Of a stretch of DNA of 64,000 nt, positions 3,799 through 12,875 are shown piece after piece. Source of the stretch: Natrinema versiforme. GTDB taxonomy: Archaea; Halobacteriota; Halobacteria; Halobacteriales; Natrialbaceae. The stretch's first letter is position 1. The number at the start of each line of letters is the position of its first letter. A program made the translations under genes and the position numbers. The notes under the pieces were generated by a model that saw only the letters and a list, made by a program, of their open reading frames with translations, had not been told where the DNA came from and searched no databases. Location: positions 372,001 to 436,000 of the forward strand of contig NZ_CP040331.1 of the NCBI RefSeq assembly GCF_005576615.1, read 5' to 3'.

Positions 3799-4033
3799 TA
3801 TGCCCGAATCCAGAACCCAACGCTTCACTGAAGACCAGTTAGTCTTCCCAATGCTTCGCCAGGCGTTCGGGTACTCACTCCGCCCACAACCGAAACAGTA
3901 CGCACTGGGAGGTTGCCCGCAATCTTGAAGCCAACAAACGACTGCTGAAGTACGTACTTGAACCATACGACAATGCCTGGTCAGTCCACTACGGTAAGAA
4001 AGGGACTCCATTTTCGGATAAAACCTCACCGTA
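3799..4033 (+). pseudogene. Unrecognised gene remnant
   Basis: Two short in-family-looking segments are visible on the plus strand: one from ATG 3799 (begins MPESRTQRFTEDQLVFPMLR) that stops after 42 codons, and one in another frame near 3920-4033 (contains NLEANKRLLKYVLEPYDNAW). They read like pieces of one protein broken by a frameshift or deletion. I cannot assign a family. The rest of 3656-4068 shows nothing. Confidence 0.3.
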
Positions 4034-4068
4034 ACCTACTCAGGACCCCTATTAGAAGGTTGAAATAT

Positions 4069-4646
4069 CTAAGTCGAACTCTTTTTCGATATTTCCAGAA
4101 CGGTCTCAAGGGTGAAGTTAGAGAATTCTTGAGTGTCGATGCTATTCCGAACTTGGTGTGGTTGATATGGAGCCGTCTTCATATTCCGTGTTCGGACGGT
4201 TTTCAGTGGGTCCTGCAGACTGGCTTTAGCGTGTGGGTTATCCAAGTCCTCGACTGACTCTCCTTTTGGTCTAATCCAGAGTTCCCATTCAAACCCGTCA
4301 GTAAGGATGGCAACGGCGTGCACATCGAGATCGCTGTCGAGGTAATCTACCATGTCATTCCGTGCATTTTCGATCTTCTTCGGGGGTTTCACCTCCCCAA
4401 AGAACCGAACGTCGTTCTGCATTGCGACATCGATTGGGAGAGACGTAATGGCGAAGTCAGGAACACCGCTACTCCTTGGCCACCGCGCACCACTGGATAG
4501 ACGACGTCGGCTGGGGAATCATTCGGACAACCCAAGCGAAGGTGACAGAGTTGGGGTGACAACGACAGTGGCAGTGCTCTGGTGAGTCTGGCGTCTACCA
4601 CAAGATGAGGATGGTCTCGTGAAGGTTTGACTGGCAGTTGGAACAC
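4069..4646 (-). pseudogene. Frameshifted PD-(D/E)XK nuclease, third gene of the defence operon
   Basis: On the minus strand the segment encodes VVYPVVRGGQG in one frame and then SSGVPDFAITSLPIDVAMQ... in the next. Inserting one A between GGA and GTAGCGG (near 4470-4475) joins them into a continuous RGGQG-SSGVPDFAI reading. The joined product carries the nuclease hallmarks PD (VPDF) and ExK (FFGEVKPP), followed by a typical domain continuation (AILTDGFEWELWIRP). It starts about 16 nt beyond the stop of the helicase gene, in the same direction. It was probably the nuclease partner of the helicase-methyltransferase pair and is now broken; a sequencing error is the alternative. N-terminal boundary uncertain. 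Confidence 0.55.
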
Positions 4647-4661
4647 TCAGCCTGCCGGTTC

Positions 4662-7600
4662 TTAGGAGTGATCTATGTCATTGTCTGGGTTATCCATACC
4701 CATCTTACCAGTCAAGGCGACATCTACGTCTGTAATCCGTTCAGGTTCAACGAGCTCAATTTCCGACGTGAGTTTATGGTGGAGTCGCTCAATTGTCCCT
4801 ACACGACCATACCTACGTCTCCGTCTGTGAATTGTCTCAATTTGCTGCTCTGCCCAGTCACTCATCTCGTGTTCGGAAATCATTTCGATGATCTCTGCTG
4901 CCTCATCTTCTACACCCAGCTCACGGTCCGTGTTCAACACCGACTGGCAGAGTTTCTTCACCCGTGTAATCGTCCGACTTTCGGCAGCCTCCCGTTGAAG
5001 GATATCATCCTCCCAAGTACTCGGTGAACTCAAATCTTCGGCGAATGACGTCAGCACGTCGTAGGCATCTTCAGACAGGTTGTATCGCGTCGGGTCGGCA
5101 GACGCGATCGTCGTGAAAATCTCAATTTCATCTGTCGTGCGACGCGGGAACTCTGCGAAGATCATTTGTCCGGCGACCTTATCGCGCTGTAGGTTGTCCT
5201 CATCGAAAATCGTGGTTTGCCACTCCTCACGCCCGGAATTGTACGCTATAAGGACCAACGTGACGATACCCGTCTCATTCGTCTCCGGCACCACGAAGAA
5301 TTGCGGCTCGTTACGGTGTTGGACCGCATCAAGTGTCTCCTGTAAATCAGTAATGTCGATGCCATGCTCGTTACAGAACGCTCGGGCGGTTTTCCGCAGA
5401 TCATCGTATTTTGATCCAATGCCTTCCAACCGATCGTCACCGAAGTTCGCTCCGGCCTCATCCAATCGTTCATACGTCATAATCGTCTTATGCACCTGTT
5501 CTTCCGCGGTATCCAGTATTGGCGCAGCGTGCCCGAAGGTGCGTGCAATCGCCTGAATCTTCTCCTGAATCCGCTCCATCAGACCCAACTGGTCTTTGAG
5601 ATTCCCTGTCGGAACAAAATTGTAGATGAGCAGTTCGTCGTGTTGGGTAGTGATGCGGTCGATCCGCCCGATGCGTTGCTCCATCTTCATCGGGTTCCAG
5701 TGTAAGTCGTAGTTCACCAGCACCCGAGAATCCTGCAGGTTCTGCCCGACGCCGAGCACGTCCGTTGAGATGAGGATATCCACTTCCTCATCAGGCGTCA
5801 CGTTAGCATCCTGTGCATGCGGTGCAAACCGTTCTACGAGGCGTTCATCGAAGTGCCCACCACCATGGACGTACGCAACTGTGCGACCGTCCACGGTCGC
5901 TATCTGCGTACTGTCAGGATTCTCGCCCGTCAATTCCTCAAAGATGTGGTGGACAGTCGGGACGTACTGGCTGAAGATGAGAACCTTCTCGGACTCTAAC
6001 TCGCGCTGCAGGATAGACTGCAAGCGGTCTACCTTTGCGTCACGAAGCCCACCGCTCCCAGTCTCCGTCTGCAGAACTGTTTGGGCTTTTTCCCGAAGTT
6101 CAGTGAGCGCGGTTAGGTCCTCGTCGATATCCTCGATGATTTGCTGACGCTTGGATTCGCTCACCCGATCGATAGCGTCCGTGATTTCATCGAAGTTGAT
6201 ATCCTTTGCGAAGTCATCCGAGAACGTCGCGCGGATCTGGTCAACCGCTTGCTCGCGGGTGTGAGCATCGGTCAATTCTCCGCGAGCAATTTGCTGCGTG
6301 ATGCGTTCTCTCTGGATGAGCCGGTCGATAGAATCCTCGAACGCGGCGAAGCTGCTTTCCAGCCTCTTCAGCAAGTTAATCAGCATTAGCACACTTGCGT
6401 TCTGATACTCCACGATGAGTTCCTCTTCTTCGTCGCCGTCGGCGTCGTATCGGTCGGCGCTCACGTACGGGATGTTGAGCCCACCGTCCCCGTCGTCTTC
6501 CGGCCCGAGAATCGTTTCAATGATTTCTGCGTAAAGCTCGTCCAGCCGTGGGTCATCTGGCGTAACCAACCGTGGAACGCGGTCGGGAACCTTGATTTGC
6601 TCACCGCCAATCGTGATGTTGTCGTACTGGTCAAGGATGTACCGACGGTCACGGGAAATCACGACCTCACGAAGGATGGATTCAATACTCTCCTCCAACT
6701 GGTCGAGTTGGGACCGCTCGTGTGCGGAAAGTTCTTCCTCACTGCTGAGCTTGTCATAATCCCGGAACACATCCGAGGGCGTGCGACCGTGAAGCTCCAA
6801 GTCGAAGTCGTCATCGTCGGCGAAGATCTTCACGACGTTCTCGACGTCGCGGACAGAGTTCTGAATCGGTGTCGCGGTTAGCATCACGAACTTCTTTCCC
6901 CGACGACCAATGGACTGCAGTTTCGCATACCGTTGTGTCCCGGTATTTCGCATGTTGTGTGCCTCGTCAATCAACACGAGGTCCACGTTCTGCAGGCGCT
7001 GTATCTCTTGCTCGTTCAAGCGTGACAGGCCCGTGAAGCTGAGGAACATCTTCTCCGCATTCGTTGGGAATTCGCCATCCTGCTCGTCTAACAGGTCGTC
7101 CATCCACATGGATCGAAGCCGATTCGGCGCGATAATCAGGACCTCATCAAGCGATGTGGTGTACTCTTGGACGAGTGGCGCGCCGATGTAGGATTTCCCG
7201 AGGCCGACGCTATCCGCGAGGATCACACCGTTGTACTTATCGAGCGGGCGGCGAGCAGCGTGGAACGCATCCTCTTGGAACGCTGTGAGTTGCTCTTCGT
7301 ACTCGCCACGAATCTCTTCTAGGAACGTGCCGTCGCTGACTTCGTACTCAAATTGCTCGACGATGAACCGCTTCGTAGCCTCGTACGGGGAGATAGTCTC
7401 AACATCGGCAACGGGCGGCCCCTCGACTTCTGGTGGCTCTGGACCGGTGTCATCGTCATCCCCAACGACGTCACCGAACTGCGATACTTCGATTTCCTCC
7501 GCCATGTGATCTGTGTCGAATGCTTCGGCTTGCTCCCATAACTCGTCGTACCAGGTGTCCAAGTACCGGATCGTAGCGTTATCTTTCTTTTCGACGTTTA

Positions 7601-8099
7601 ACTCTACGTTCCCGTGCAGACCGCTTGCAGAAAGGTTTGAGGACCCAATGACGGCGCGACCGAGATCGATAGCGTCGGGTGGATTCCTGAACAAGTACAG
7701 TTTAGGGTGGAAGCGGGATTCGTTGTAGACCTTCACGTCTACCTTCCCGAGTTGAATGAATTCGTACAGCCGCTTCACACCGGCCTCTGCTTCGTCCTTG
7801 TCGTACTCATCGAGGCTATCGCTGAATCCGCGTTGGAGTTCTTCGATCGTCCGGTCGGACGTGTGCGTCCCGATGATGAGTTGGATATGATCAGCGTCTT
7901 TGAGGTTCTCTTTCAATAGTTCGAATCCGCCGAGGTAGAAATACCCGACCGCGATTTTCACGGTATGAGCGCGCGGTGCAAGGGCGTTCACGCGATCACC
8001 GACGTCGAACTCCTTGTTGTCGAGAACGTCAGAGTAGTCTGACCAGTCCGGTTCCTCATCGCGGTCGTCAGGTGCGGCGGGTGGCGTGGAATCCGTCAT
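4662..8099 (-). CDS. PLD-domain / SNF2-family helicase fusion (defence-type)
   Basis: The 1145-aa protein begins with a phospholipase D-like nuclease domain (residues about 40-200) with one HKD-type motif: H131 and K133 in RFHPKLYLF, then GSSNLSASGL at 152-161. A SNF2/SWI2-type ATPase follows: Walker A-like DSVGLGKS at 296-303, DEAH at 378-381, TATP at 408-411. Its C-terminal helicase lobe (about residues 700-810) includes KVLIFSQY and QRIGRIDRI. One HKD motif per chain implies dimerisation for nuclease activity. The gene starts 27 nt downstream of the methyltransferase stop and is followed by a broken nuclease gene. PLD nucleases, SNF2 helicases and adenine methylases co-occur in systems such as DISARM; this fusion is related in parts but is not a complete known locus. 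Role in restricting foreign DNA is inferred. Confidence 0.85.
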   Translation of the reverse strand: MTDSTPPAAPDDRDEEPDWSDYSDVLDNKEFDVGDRVNALAPRAHTVKIAVGYFYLGGFELLKENLKDADHIQLIIGTHTSDRTIEELQRGFSDSLDEYDKDEAEAGVKRLYEFIQLGKVDVKVYNESRFHPKLYLFRNPPDAIDLGRAVIGSSNLSASGLHGNVELNVEKKDNATIRYLDTWYDELWEQAEAFDTDHMAEEIEVSQFGDVVGDDDDTGPEPPEVEGPPVADVETISPYEATKRFIVEQFEYEVSDGTFLEEIRGEYEEQLTAFQEDAFHAARRPLDKYNGVILADSVGLGKSYIGAPLVQEYTTSLDEVLIIAPNRLRSMWMDDLLDEQDGEFPTNAEKMFLSFTGLSRLNEQEIQRLQNVDLVLIDEAHNMRNTGTQRYAKLQSIGRRGKKFVMLTATPIQNSVRDVENVVKIFADDDDFDLELHGRTPSDVFRDYDKLSSEEELSAHERSQLDQLEESIESILREVVISRDRRYILDQYDNITIGGEQIKVPDRVPRLVTPDDPRLDELYAEIIETILGPEDDGDGGLNIPYVSADRYDADGDEEEELIVEYQNASVLMLINLLKRLESSFAAFEDSIDRLIQRERITQQIARGELTDAHTREQAVDQIRATFSDDFAKDINFDEITDAIDRVSESKRQQIIEDIDEDLTALTELREKAQTVLQTETGSGGLRDAKVDRLQSILQRELESEKVLIFSQYVPTVHHIFEELTGENPDSTQIATVDGRTVAYVHGGGHFDERLVERFAPHAQDANVTPDEEVDILISTDVLGVGQNLQDSRVLVNYDLHWNPMKMEQRIGRIDRITTQHDELLIYNFVPTGNLKDQLGLMERIQEKIQAIARTFGHAAPILDTAEEQVHKTIMTYERLDEAGANFGDDRLEGIGSKYDDLRKTARAFCNEHGIDITDLQETLDAVQHRNEPQFFVVPETNETGIVTLVLIAYNSGREEWQTTIFDEDNLQRDKVAGQMIFAEFPRRTTDEIEIFTTIASADPTRYNLSEDAYDVLTSFAEDLSSPSTWEDDILQREAAESRTITRVKKLCQSVLNTDRELGVEDEAAEIIEMISEHEMSDWAEQQIETIHRRRRRYGRVGTIERLHHKLTSEIELVEPERITDVDVALTGKMGMDNPDNDIDHS

Positions 8100-8126
8100 G
8101 AGTTACAGGGGGAGAGGTAGTGTCGG

Positions 8127-11100
8127 TCAGTACCAGCGCGGGATGTACTCAACGTCAAGGCCGTAGAGGTCAGCGATTTTCTCGTCGATTTCAGCCTGAA
8201 CCTCATCAAGTGACCGATCGGTCTCGCCTTTCTGCAGCGCGATGGCTTCATCGATGCTCTCGATGATGTCGTCCAATTGTTCCTCGGTTGGAACCGGTAC
8301 CGGGATGACGCGCATGTCCGCAGCCTGCACGTTCAGTGTCCCGTTGATGAAGTGGTACAGGACGTACTTGGTGACCTCCGAGTTGAGGATGCCGAGCAGG
8401 TACTTCGGTGGGAGTCGATCTGTCGTGGAGATGAGTACGACACCGCTGGAGTCCACAACGGCGTTGTTGATATAGCGAGCCTTAGTCTTGTACTTCCCTG
8501 CACCACCGCGTGATGCGAAGACAGCCGAGCGGAAGTAGTAACTCGGGTCACGAATGCGGCCACCGCGCCGGTTACTGATTTTCTCCAGGCTCTCCTTGCT
8601 CCAGTCGATGTACTGCTCGGTCGGCTTGTAGTACACGTCTGATGTGGACGCGCCCTTCTCTATCGGAACCCACGTCCGATTATCACGTTCGTCGGTATCG
8701 ATCCCGTTGAATCGTTCTTCTTCGGATAGTTCCAATGGGTCGATTGTGTGTTCATCCGTAATGACGCGGTTAATGAAGTTGTACGCGTTTTCGTTCTGCT
8801 CGACGTATTGGAAGTCCTCGTTCCGGTCTTTAACGCGTTCTGCGCTGTCAGTCCCGTCGATGTACGCGATGTGCTCCTTGTTGTTGTTTGTTTTCAGCCC
8901 TTCGCCGCCCCATGTAACCAAGCCGAGAAGTGTAACATCACCCGGTTCAAGTTGGTTGATGTGTTGCTCGCGGATCTCATCCAAGTTGTCACGCTGCCGA
9001 TCCACGTCGTACAGCTCCTCTTTCCACTCGCCGATAAGGTCGTTCGCTGGGTCGATATAGTCCCGGTAGACCTTCTGTTTGACCTCGTCCGGTTCGAAGA
9101 AGCTCCCTCGGATGCTGTTCCGGTACATATTGATGGGGACCTGATACGCGTGCAGGTCTTCGTTGTCCGTGAGCTTCCGGACTTCGTTGTCGCCGTTGTC
9201 CGGCAGGTTGGGGAAGTGGATGAGGTTTCGGTAACTCGTGATGGGGGATTCCAGCCCGTTGACGTACCGCATCTGGTAGTTTCGATCCCTCGCATCTTCG
9301 TGCTGGAGTGAGAAGATGGCAGCGTTGACCGCAGCGTCGAACGTATCGATGTTCGTGAGAAGGATTTCCTGTAGCCGGTTCGACTGGAGCAGGTTCCGTG
9401 TAGAGGTTTTCGTAGCGATCGTGCGGAATGTCGAATTAACGATGTACGAGAAGACACCGCCGTCACGGACGAGTTCCTCACCGCGGTAGATGAACTTCTG
9501 GTAGCGGTCGTACACCATCTTCCGCACCGGCTTCACGTACTCGTCGCGGTGTTCCTCGTAGAAGTCGCTGAGTGCGGTCACGTAGTCTGGATTCGTTCCG
9601 CCCTTGTATGGGGGGTTACCGATGACGATATCGAACCCGCCTTCCAGAAGGACTTCCGGAATGTTGATACTCCACTTGAATGCCTCCTCGTCCGTGTCGA
9701 GCTCACCAACGGCTTCCGACATCCAGTGATCGGATGAGTCCCAACTAATCTTCTTATCGAGCTCGTCCGTCAAGCGCTGTAATTCGTCATGTATCTCCTG
9801 TTTCTCATCGTTATGCGCACCGACGTACTCTTTCCGCAGCGTGGAGATACGGTCAATAAGGTCATCTTCGCCGTAGTCACCGGTCAGGCTACCCTGGTAG
9901 TCGCCTTCGCGGAGCGTATCGCGTAGCTCGGTCGGTTCGTAGTCACCGACGAGACTGTTCCCGACGAAGAACTTGAGACCAAGGTTCGGAAGCGCGTACC
10001 GGTCGTTCTGTTCGAGAAATTCGTCGATGGAGATGTGGAGGTCTTGAATGAGGTACAACCAGACGCGGAACTTGCAGAGTTCAATCCCACCACTGTCGAT
10101 ATCGACGCCGTATAGCGAGTCGCGGATGAAATCTTGCTTGAGTTCGAAGCGGTCGATGTCGTCGTCTAACGCGTCTGTCAGGGCTTCAACGATGGCGACC
10201 AGTTCCTCACTCATGGCGATGATGAACGCGCCACTCCCGACGGCCGGGTCAACCACTTGGACGTCCCTAACCTTCTCACGCATCCCATGAACAATGTCTT
10301 CGGACAGATCGGTTGGTGCACGGTGGTTCCCGACTAACTCGATCACCGCGTCTTCATGGTCGGCGTAGTCCTCCAGGAGGAACTGCTTGAGCGCGTTCTT
10401 CGCCATATACTCGGTGATTGGTTTCGGGGTGTAGAACGTCCCTTTTTCCTCGCGCTCAGCCTCCTGCATGAACATCTCGAAGATACGCCCGATGAACTCG
10501 GGGTCAACAATCAACTCCTGTTCGCTTGGATTGGACTCGCTGAGCGAGAACTTGTACTGTCGGAGGAATCCTTTCGGGTCACCGTCTTCCGTTTCCGTCG
10601 GGTTGAGCAGCGCGTCGAAGAACGCGGGTTCGACAGTAACGTCTTCCTCGATCGATTTCTCTTCAAAGAGCCCACCGTTGAAGTACGGAATACGACCAAG
10701 GAAGTCGTAGGACTGATGTGTAGCGTCACACAGCGCGTTGAAGAACAACGGCTCGAAGAAGTCATGGTAGACATGCATATCGGGGTCGTCCCGGGCGACT
10801 TCGTACTTGTTCTCGATGTAGTCTGTATCGCCGTTCAGCCAGCCTTTCTCCTCAACGAAAAGCAAGAACAGGACACGGTTGACTACTAAACGCGTGTACG
10901 CATTTAGGTTCTCGCCCGGATCCGGAAGCCCAGTGATAGACTTCTGCAGATCGTCGCGGAAAATCTCACCAAACTGCTCGTAGAAGGTGTTCGTGACCTC
11001 CCGGATGGAGAACGTGTCTTCAACGTTACTGAGTAGGGAGTCCCGGTCTTGCCTACTGGTGACGTAGAGAGTGTCGAGAAAGTCGAGGTAGATTGGTTCA

Positions 11101-11537
11101 ATGTCAGTGAGGTTAACAGTAAAGTACTTCAGGTCAAAGGTGAGTTCGACATCTTCGGAGGAAAACTGCTCGTCAATGTAGAGGAAGGTAAGTTCGTTAG
11201 AAACCGGGCTGGTAAGCGGCCCGTCATCTTCTTCTCGGTACGCTACAACGACGAACAACTCGTCAATCGGGGTTCCGTATCGCTTGAGATGTTTTTTGAC
11301 ATCGCTGAAAGAGGGAGAGTCACCGCCCTGACTAAGCTCAATGTACCGGATGACCCCCTCTCCATCCAAATCAACGAGGTGCGCTTCATACCAGTCATTC
11401 GTTCCTTGGTTCCGGCGGAGGCCATCCGGGATCGTCACGAACTCACCGTAGTTCAATCCGCTTTCGTCGAGAAGGTAATCCAAGACGTCGAATCCCGTCG
11501 TTATGTCAGAAAGTCGTTCCGGACGTACCGTGGACAT
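8127..11537 (-). CDS. Eco57I/PglX-type adenine-specific DNA methyltransferase
   Basis: The 1136-aa protein has the FYTPKP motif (368-373), the SAM-binding motif I DPAVGSGAF (430-438) and the catalytic NPPY (641-644). These define an N6-adenine methyltransferase of the type IIG/PglX group. Long N-terminal (1-350) and C-terminal (about 700-1136) regions flank the core. The C-terminus resembles a target-recognition domain, with a late PVPTEEQLDDIIESIDE segment. No PD-(D/E)XK motif is obvious at the N-terminus, so cleavage probably depends on partners. ATG 11537 is chosen over an upstream in-frame start at 11606, whose extra residues look non-coding. It leads an operon with the PLD-SNF2 helicase. 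The likely role is to mark self DNA. Confidence 0.85.
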   Translation of the reverse strand: MSTVRPERLSDITTGFDVLDYLLDESGLNYGEFVTIPDGLRRNQGTNDWYEAHLVDLDGEGVIRYIELSQGGDSPSFSDVKKHLKRYGTPIDELFVVVAYREEDDGPLTSPVSNELTFLYIDEQFSSEDVELTFDLKYFTVNLTDIEPIYLDFLDTLYVTSRQDRDSLLSNVEDTFSIREVTNTFYEQFGEIFRDDLQKSITGLPDPGENLNAYTRLVVNRVLFLLFVEEKGWLNGDTDYIENKYEVARDDPDMHVYHDFFEPLFFNALCDATHQSYDFLGRIPYFNGGLFEEKSIEEDVTVEPAFFDALLNPTETEDGDPKGFLRQYKFSLSESNPSEQELIVDPEFIGRIFEMFMQEAEREEKGTFYTPKPITEYMAKNALKQFLLEDYADHEDAVIELVGNHRAPTDLSEDIVHGMREKVRDVQVVDPAVGSGAFIIAMSEELVAIVEALTDALDDDIDRFELKQDFIRDSLYGVDIDSGGIELCKFRVWLYLIQDLHISIDEFLEQNDRYALPNLGLKFFVGNSLVGDYEPTELRDTLREGDYQGSLTGDYGEDDLIDRISTLRKEYVGAHNDEKQEIHDELQRLTDELDKKISWDSSDHWMSEAVGELDTDEEAFKWSINIPEVLLEGGFDIVIGNPPYKGGTNPDYVTALSDFYEEHRDEYVKPVRKMVYDRYQKFIYRGEELVRDGGVFSYIVNSTFRTIATKTSTRNLLQSNRLQEILLTNIDTFDAAVNAAIFSLQHEDARDRNYQMRYVNGLESPITSYRNLIHFPNLPDNGDNEVRKLTDNEDLHAYQVPINMYRNSIRGSFFEPDEVKQKVYRDYIDPANDLIGEWKEELYDVDRQRDNLDEIREQHINQLEPGDVTLLGLVTWGGEGLKTNNNKEHIAYIDGTDSAERVKDRNEDFQYVEQNENAYNFINRVITDEHTIDPLELSEEERFNGIDTDERDNRTWVPIEKGASTSDVYYKPTEQYIDWSKESLEKISNRRGGRIRDPSYYFRSAVFASRGGAGKYKTKARYINNAVVDSSGVVLISTTDRLPPKYLLGILNSEVTKYVLYHFINGTLNVQAADMRVIPVPVPTEEQLDDIIESIDEAIALQKGETDRSLDEVQAEIDEKIADLYGLDVEYIPRWY

Positions 11538-11667
11538 GTTACTTCCTGCCTTTCCCCTACACCCGCTTAAAAACTTGCTTAACTGATGAACGGCAATTCT
11601 CCCCAAATTTGGACGCTTATCGCTTCAAAACCGGAATATTGGGAAATAAGTAGTTACTTGGCCCAAG

Positions 11668-11834
11668 ATGACGCATCAACTGACAATGGGGTCACTGAGT
11701 ACGTTTGATATGAGCAGGCTGGATTCCAGCGAGATAGAGGTCGTCAATATCGTTGGTTCCGGTGAATTCGGCAGGGAAGTCGATATTGAAGTTCTTTCCG
11801 ATGATCTACCCTCAGCGAGATACGGTCGTGTTTA
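11668..11834 (+). pseudogene. TATA-binding protein (TBP) fragment cut by an IS
   Basis: From ATG 11668 about 55 codons read like the start of a haloarchaeal TBP. The segment EIEVVNIVGSGEFGREVDIE followed by LSDDLPSARYG matches the first beta-strands and helix of the TBP saddle (compare ENVVAS.GLGRELDL...L...A.Y). The frame then runs into the terminal repeat of the IS6-family element at 11828 and stops. I did not find the rest of TBP on the far side of the element, so a deletion accompanied or followed the insertion. TBP paralogues are common on haloarchaeal plasmids. Confidence 0.6.
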
Positions 11835-12515
11835 GTTTGTAGCATTCTGCCAGACAGCGAAGGCTTGGAGCCACGATTCTGCGGTTGATGGTTTAGCATG
11901 ACTGAAACAGTTTGAGAATGAAGAGATGCGTCGTTTTATCTCTCGAAAGATACGTTCGACAGCGTTCCGATTTCCCTGTTTTCGTATCGAAATCGGAGTC
12001 CGTGTCGGCGGAGTGCTGTCTGGAGATGCTGTGCGCCATCGACGAGAAACACAGTGTTTTCGACATCGTGTTTCTCGATTAGTTCTCGCAGAAAGCGTTC
12101 AGTCACTGCGGTCGTAGTCGTCGAAAATAGCCGTATGTGAAGAATTCTGTTCGTTTCAGGATCGACTGCAGCATACAGCCAATACTGGTGATCATCGATT
12201 CGAATCACGGTTTCGTCGAGCGCAACGTGATTCGGATTCGCATCAGTTGTTGGCTGTAGATCGGCTTTCTGCACCCAATCGTGAACAGCCTTTCGCGAAC
12301 GCTTGACATCGAACTTCTCGAGTTCCCGAACGGTATTCGAAAGCGATAATCCAGCAAGGTGGAGTCGAATACCAAGCTCCATCAGCCGGCGCGGTGTCCG
12401 TTCTCTCTCCACAAAACTCAAATCAATCCAGTCGCTACAACCATTGAGGCAGTCGATTTTTGCCATAGACCAGCACAAAATCGTGCCGCCTCACTTTTCA
12501 CGCTTAACTAAACAC
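11828..12515 (-). mobile_element. IS6-family insertion sequence (copy 1)
   Basis: The element is about 688 bp. Its ends carry the inverted repeat GTGTTTAGTT (left at 11828, mirrored by AACTAAACAC ending at 12515). No flanking target duplication is apparent, which fits rearrangement after insertion, and the left end interrupts a TBP gene. Related elements occur at 45472-46156 (intact ORF) and near 21110-21690 (decayed). Confidence 0.7.
11832..12478 (-). pseudogene. IS6-family transposase, frameshifted
   Basis: Translation from 12478 gives a DDE transposase very similar in layout to the intact copy at 45519-46154: VALDETVIRIDD (first Asp), FLVDGAQHLQTALRRHG (second Asp region), then a loss of frame at RYENR. 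The next frame resumes with GNRNAVERIFREIKRR, which carries the catalytic Glu, and ends at 11832. A single-base change near 11970-11980 therefore splits the ORF. IS6 elements move by forming cointegrates through this transposase. The copy is probably inactive. Confidence 0.7.
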
Positions 12516-12875
12516 AGCCCGGCAGTAACTCGTTTTTCGGCTAAATTTTTGTTCCTGTGTACGAGTTTCAGCTAACGGACAGTTTAATCGGTTGCTTTTC
12601 GGCGTAGATCGGCGTCCTAAAGCCTGAGAACTGGGTTTCTCGTGAACGTTTTGACCGGCATTCGCAACTCCAGGGCCGCAGTTTGATATGGCGATATGTG
12701 GTTTACGCCAATTTGGCCGACTGCCTCCGCTATGTTACTAAACTCGTGTGTCCTACGTGCGACACACGGACAAGCAGTAGTTTTACATGACTGTCAGTTG
12801 TATTCAGATACGTGAAAATGAGGGCCTTAGAATGCACCCAACCCGGAGGAACGGGGTTCTCGAGCGGGTGGGCGC
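12516..12875. other. Gene-free stretch before the recombinase gene
   Basis: No coding sequence is supported in these 360 bases. They contain the palindromic core-like site at 12745-12768, and a purine-rich GGAGG near 12845-12849 that is too far from the recombinase start to be a normal ribosome-binding site. Confidence 0.5.
12745..12768. promoter_or_regulatory. Candidate tyrosine-recombinase core (att-like) site
   Basis: CGTGTGTC at 12745-12752 and GACACACG at 12761-12768 are perfect 8-bp inverted arms around an 8-bp asymmetric spacer (CTACGTGC). This is the geometry of a core site at which two recombinase monomers bind the arms and exchange strands in the spacer. It sits 107 nt upstream of the recombinase start. 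A regulatory operator is the alternative reading. Confidence 0.4.

Follow-up and report, generated by a model that had tools for sequence, protein, structure and literature searches.

A probable two-gene restriction-modification system pairing a PLD nuclease-SNF2 motor with an adenine methyltransferase in Natrinema versiforme and other haloarchaea

Is a short operon of Natrinema versiforme, encoding an adenine methyltransferase (MTase) and a helicase fused to a PLD nuclease domain, a fragment of a known defence system or a restriction system in its own right, and does a broken nuclease gene beside it take part? The operon lies in a 64,000-nucleotide stretch of the forward strand, referred to here as the window (RefSeq assembly GCF_005576615.1, contig NZ_CP040331.1, positions 372,001 to 436,000). 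The initial annotation had described a three-gene defence operon, in which an Eco57I/PglX-type MTase is followed after 27 nt by the helicase fusion and then by a frameshifted nuclease gene. Open reading frame (ORF) analysis and Pfam matches bear out the first two members, two intact genes with 27 nt between them, and add that both lie on the minus strand. The two-gene operon is real, whereas the third gene is excluded, being absent from five other close cassettes and surviving here as an inverted remnant. The pair is probably a complete two-subunit, ATP-dependent restriction-modification system, a reading to which we assign a probability of about 0.72 because both genes are intact, the catalytic motifs are present, the pairing is near-obligate, and the recognition region is exchanged over a constant nuclease-motor.

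The PLD and SNF2/Helicase_C domains of the motor protein share a single chain, with Pfam matches to PLDc_2 (6e-11), SNF2-rel_dom (1e-9), Helicase_C (3.5e-16), and RE_NgoFVII (7.9e-8). The MTase, whose open frame extends to position 11606 if a TTG start is used, shows weaker Pfam matches to the MmeI spacer and the TaqI C-terminal recognition domain. PADLOC, proposed earlier as a check, matches the two halves to separate models, C3a139 (HKD+Snf2) at 3.9e-80 for the motor protein and a Type IIG model at 6.2e-37 for the MTase, with DrmMI and PglX ranking lower. Alignment of the six close MTases revealed no conserved (D/E)xK in residues 1-235, so that no nuclease other than the PLD domain is recognised in the pair; a nuclease domain in the MTase chain, as in Type IIG enzymes, was not seen in these residues, although the models of the two proteins have predicted local distance difference test (pLDDT) scores of only 33 and 37. 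Cleavage would most likely fall to this domain.

A match to the motor protein at 1e-30 was found in 53 of 293 genomes of the order, and an Eco57I-type MTase lies within 6 kb of the motor at 55 of the 58 haloarchaeal PLD-SNF2 loci, with the MTase gene preceding the motor gene on the same strand in 24, a convergent arrangement in 30, and the motor gene preceding the MTase gene in one. In total, 62 motor places were typed and 54 examined in context, with four more of the 58 loci coming from other searches; eight places stand outside the count, namely one on C2 of the N. versiforme genome (G000), examined separately, the second places of G181, G102, and G200, then G190, G205, G270, and the G060 fragment. 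The three loci without an MTase of at least 700 aa are G112, L139, and L152, the last two being places where the contig or the examined stretch ends early, and some of the partner MTases counted span only ~700-775 aa. Viewed in reverse, 29 of the 30 listed MTase places (E 1e-50 or better, two candidates scored per genome) lie at most 10 kb from a motor gene in genomes with a listed motor. A pair of this kind also occurs on a Lactiplantibacillus plasmid (L053), and near-pairs with intervening genes are carried by plasmids of Deinococcus, Nostoc, and Thermococcus. The MTase profile detected no relatives in viral contigs (0 of 65 candidate stretches).

Across 59 aligned motor proteins, comprising the 58 loci and Lactiplantibacillus, the PLD residues H, K, G-S, N, and E and the checked residues of Walker A, the DEAH box, and motif VI are invariant. 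An NPPY-type motif occurs in all partner MTases of at least 1000 aa (53/53), and 43 of these 53 carry motif I by the pattern used.

Of the 391 genomes sampled from the class, 6 have a full-length MTase match above 1700 bits, and the window copy is assigned to a rare haloarchaeal branch. The close set comprises six cassettes, those of the window, G110, G113, Halorubrum californiense (L049), H. halophilum (L050), and G425, with G315 and G409 taken as the same cassettes as H. californiense and H. halophilum, respectively. The MTase gene precedes the motor gene in all six, no other gene is common to them, and further neighbours are shared only between G110 and H. californiense, two cassettes with 82-92% identity in their flanking DNA. 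Identity between G113 and G425 is 94% in the motor and 93% in MTase residues 1-540, against 46% from MTase residue 720 to the end; the corresponding values for G110 and H. californiense are 90%, 93%, and 38%. The recognition regions of G110 and G425 remain 71% identical, although these cassettes are 79 and 79% identical elsewhere. In codons of identical residues, the MTases of both close pairs agree at 61-88% of third positions within residues 1-540 but at only 27-46% from residue 721 onwards, and since the third positions diverge too, the C-terminal segment appears to have been replaced, not rapidly mutated. Target-recognition domains of restriction systems usually behave in this way, being exchanged between relatives, and an exchangeable target-recognition region in the modification subunit, by which ATP-dependent restriction-modification is recognised, is present here. 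The near-constant motor-nuclease tolerates MTases with differing recognition regions, and its specificity is therefore most likely set by the MTase.

In the proposed mechanism, the MTase would find its DNA site through the C-terminal target-recognition region and methylate adenine in host copies, with the PLD-SNF2 protein docking on this enzyme. Where foreign DNA offers an unmethylated site, the motor would hydrolyse ATP and move on or remodel the DNA, and the PLD domain would cut, probably as a dimer. Alongside a motor specificity conferred by the MTase, we infer translocation, cleavage, and restriction of viruses or plasmids. The same genome carries a second, distant PLD-SNF2 gene on C2 (L087:7671-13650) with an uninterrupted frame of 1278 aa; the convergent MTase gene next to it has lost the part for residues 1 to ~494 and contains a frame break. 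At G112 the MTase is reduced to its final ~107 residues, next to an ORF judged by eye to be a transposase. Open motors persisting without an MTase may fit, as weak evidence, a nuclease that is unable to act alone, but the motors at these two loci may themselves be inactive.

Several observations weigh against a two-subunit restriction system. Many pairs of the wider family are convergent and do not form operons (30/58), and some have intervening genes. AlphaFold models from three-row alignments reached pLDDT 33 and 37 for the two proteins, with no PLD dimer or modification-restriction (M-R) contact visible, and MTase residues 1-200 may hold an unrecognised nuclease. The PLD residues used by BfiI are H, K, N, and E. 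The classic HKD aspartate, expected at the fifth position after the lysine, is not conserved in the aligned proteins, and SauUSI likewise carries HxKx4E (passages of PMC7913695). The PglX-like MTase and the RapA-like motor, the latter from a family of remodellers, would also suit a BREX-like or epigenetic module in which methylation serves as a mark and the motor acts by blocking replication or remodelling DNA, with little or no site-linked cleavage; we consider this unlikely, as a protein with no part in DNA cutting would hardly account for the invariance of the PLD residues H, K, N, and E. It is judged quite improbable that the pair belongs to an incomplete DISARM, ARMADA, or BREX-related system with its remaining components acting from elsewhere in the genome. 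Parts of the operon do resemble DISARM and BREX, as had been noticed initially, the motor being similar to DrmD and HmaA and the MTase to DrmMI and PglX, and a DUF499 gene lies ~112 kb from the window on the same contig; an MZB-domain gene and a weak PglZ match on C2 point in the same direction. DISARM needs the YprA-family helicase DrmA, DrmB, and a separate PLD protein. However, neither DrmA nor DrmB occurs among the 10 neighbouring ORFs or is shared by the close cassettes, with one MZB-domain gene elsewhere, on C2, and BrxC and PglZ are likewise missing from these ORFs, with only a weak partial PglZ match on C2. No long helicase gene that could be the YprA-family helicase of ARMADA lies beside the pair or is common to the six close cassettes, the window pair misses the NCBIfam curated cut-offs for DISARM DrmD and BREX PglX by a wide margin, and the stand-alone pair is the rule in the 58 loci. 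Membership of DISARM, BREX, BREX-related systems, and ARMADA is rejected for want of their defining partners in the locus, in agreement with the initial view that this is not a standard arrangement. The distinct restriction architecture with PLD cleavage suggested at that stage is supported as the most likely one.

The same annotation had ascribed VPDF...GEVK nuclease motifs, a one-base frameshift, and a possible role as a lost system component to the third gene. The motifs are present, and the intact relatives, stand-alone proteins of ~231 aa found in Natronorubrum aibiense, Halarchaeum, and several other genomes, share invariant E62, P96-D97, and E118-x-K120. These residues form a PD-(D/E)XK-like pattern and would fit a nuclease of this kind, although the relatives match no Pfam family. 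Alignment to the intact 231-aa homologues rules out an operon member with a one-base frameshift. Codons 1 to ~53 were not found in the window by this alignment, leaving the gene 5'-truncated, and the two remaining pieces (Table 1) abut within a few nucleotides in intact homologues. Because these opposite-strand pieces touch in the intact gene, an inversion of ~582 bp, at about 3904-4485, is taken to have split it. A three-gene restriction architecture that recently lost its PD-(D/E)XK member would draw on the position of the remnant next to the motor gene, on the nuclease residues kept by its relatives, and on the presence of a more distant PLD-SNF2 pair within ~10 kb in 4 of 8 contexts of the homologues. 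In a fifth context, that of Halarchaeum, an MTase gene starts 63 nt from the homologue. Conversely, no pair lies near the homologues of L079, L085, and L086, all five other close cassettes carry the pair without this gene, the intact gene sits at other genomic places, and before the inversion the gene lay on the strand opposite to the operon, pointing towards it. Such a three-gene origin is thus highly improbable. The nuclease is best described as a frequent defence-island neighbour of such pairs, not an operon member, and the broken third gene plays no part in the two-gene system.

Table 1. Positions of the two operon genes, their motifs, and the nuclease remnant in the window, and of genes for TATA-binding-protein (TBP) paralogues at cassettes of other loci
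Feature	Position	Strand	Evidence
Eco57I/PglX-type N6-adenine MTase	8127-11537	-	1136 aa from ATG at 11537; Pfam Eco57I 2.5e-24; five further cassettes have full-length homologues
MTase motif I DPAVGSG, residues 430-436	10230-10250	-	invariant across six close MTases
MTase catalytic motif NPPY, residues 641-644	9606-9617	-	NPPY-type motif in 53/53 partner MTases of at least 1000 aa
MTase C-terminal target-recognition region (predicted), ~residues 720-1136	8130-9380	-	weak TaqI_C match; swapped between close cassettes
PLD nuclease-SNF2/RapA-like motor protein, 1145 aa	4662-8099	-	Pfam and PADLOC matches
PLD active-site residues H131, K133, G152-S153, N155, E166	7602-7709	-	invariant in 59/59 aligned proteins
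Walker A ADSVGLGKS, residues 295-303	7191-7217	-	G301, K302 invariant in 59/59
DEAH box, residues 378-381	6957-6968	-	D378, E379 invariant in 59/59
Motor motif VI QRIGRIDR, residues 808-815	5655-5678	-	Q808, R809, R812 invariant in 59/59
PD-(D/E)XK-like gene remnant, codons ~87-218, inverted; outside the system	4094-4485	-	72-76% DNA identity to intact homologues
Same PD-(D/E)XK-like remnant, codons ~54-86; outside the system	3808-3903	+	~80% DNA identity to intact homologues
TBP place, L039	5103-6200		
TBP place, L041	5172-5711		
TBP place, L043	14289-14837		
TBP place, L044	8795-9337		
TBP place, L045	15963-16562		
TBP place, L112	4856-5410		
TBP place, L123	7461-8018		
TBP place, L127	8526-9140		
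TBP place, L131	8782-9345		
TBP place, L138	4173-4718		

Paralogues of TBP stand beside or between the two cassette genes in 10 of 57 loci (11 genes in 1.10 Mb), against ~0.66 expected from 2.2 TBP genes per genome, with half the domain matches taken, and 3.7 Mb per genome. Four cassette TBPs were confirmed as PF00352, and no TBP gene was found in the window. Their role could be to switch this system in particular, or they could do no more than mark mobile islands. A TBP-like gene of G060 (L046:8939-9448) lies near a 159-aa frame matching only the last ~110 motor residues, apparently a decayed cassette.

Other observations concern the surroundings of the cassettes. Just upstream of the window MTase gene, an insertion-sequence remnant on the minus strand (11823-12520) contains a broken DDE (IS240-type) transposase frame (11939-12478), its inverted ends being judged by eye. 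A 264-aa gene of G425 begins 11 nt after the motor gene (L110:4052-4846) and gives a weak AbiJ_NTD5 match (2.7e-4), below the Pfam cut-off. At G218 (L111:4927-16186) the motor gene is placed between two different MTase genes, in the order MTase-motor-MTase, and one nuclease possibly serves two specificities there.

We propose, tentatively and with less confidence than for the system itself, that such pairs may form a widespread, unnamed class in which a PLD nuclease-SNF2 motor works with an MTase that lacks a nuclease, is the sole bearer of specificity, and can be re-targeted by C-terminal exchange, the haloarchaeal cassettes repeatedly bearing their own TBP paralogue, perhaps as a dedicated switch. 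Profile libraries file one half under Type IIG enzymes and the other under DrmD or HKD+Snf2, so that the most likely joint action of the two is easily overlooked. The pair, present at 55 of the 58 haloarchaeal loci, may be a defence barrier common among archaea. The exchange of recognition regions makes it directly testable which subunit sets specificity, and would allow methylomes to reveal the target sites. The window locus by itself is unremarkable; what is useful and testable is the pairing throughout the family together with this exchange.

Comparison with known systems, as described in the cited passages of each source, places the pair among several relatives. BREX-related Type-2 systems also pair an N6-MTase with a Swi2/Snf2 motor that carries an HKD (PLD) nuclease as a fusion, but they need a DUF499 ATPase, DUF3780, and a DUF1156-type MTase (PMC12839542). 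The window MTase matches Eco57I, not DUF1156; DUF499 is not in the locus, with matches only at C3:259-261 kb, outside the window; and DUF3780 is missing among the 10 window ORFs under two partly overlapping Pfam and PADLOC sets, no genome-wide search having been made. The DUF499 gene on the same contig (G000:C3:259457-261181) has a 1125-aa frame, and the replicon probably carries another, BREX-related or Hma-like system. DISARM class 1 and ARMADA likewise join a RapA/BrxHII-like motor to a PglX-like MTase, but ARMADA needs the YprA-family helicase ArmC (PMC12458937).

Among ATP-dependent restriction enzymes, SauUSI similarly fuses a PLD nuclease to an SF2 ATP motor and translocates and cleaves; it differs as a Type IV enzyme whose own recognition domain reads methylated DNA, with no MTase partner described in that source (PMC7913695). 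CglI and NgoAVII share ATP-dependent restriction, a PLD nuclease, an SF2 ATPase, and an MTase, but are encoded by three genes, with the nuclease separate from the ATPase and carrying a B3 recognition domain (PMC5737866, PMC4267653, PMC7913695).

The openly licensed literature searched held no name for the two-gene class and no assay of it, and this kind of pair has been noted there once before, on a lactococcal plasmid. In pLd8 of Lactococcus lactis FM03P, orf33/orf34 encode a PLD-SNF2 motor and, next to it, a Type IIG-like N6-adenine MTase that lacks a nuclease domain; restriction was assigned to the PLD protein, and a likeness to DISARM class I was noted (passages of PMC6098607). The window pair has the same composition, PLD and SNF2/Helicase_C on one chain and an adjoining Eco57I-type MTase without a recognisable nuclease domain, whereas the pLd8 pair is bacterial, plasmid-borne, and predicted only, and is likened to the window by description, not by sequence (PMC6098607). 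The Lactiplantibacillus pair, with its motor gene first, is related to the pLd8 pair. Type ISP enzymes (LlaGI, LlaBIII) hold the same parts, a nuclease, an ATP motor, a gamma-MTase, and a C-terminal recognition domain, but in one chain with an Mrr-type PD-QxK nuclease, whereas the window has two chains, a PLD nuclease, and a RapA-like motor (passages of PMC3874165). With two genes and a PLD domain in place of an Mrr-type PD-(D/E/Q)xK nuclease, the pair falls outside Type ISP, and its arrangement is reminiscent of a Type ISP enzyme split over two chains, in which PLD replaces the Mrr domain.

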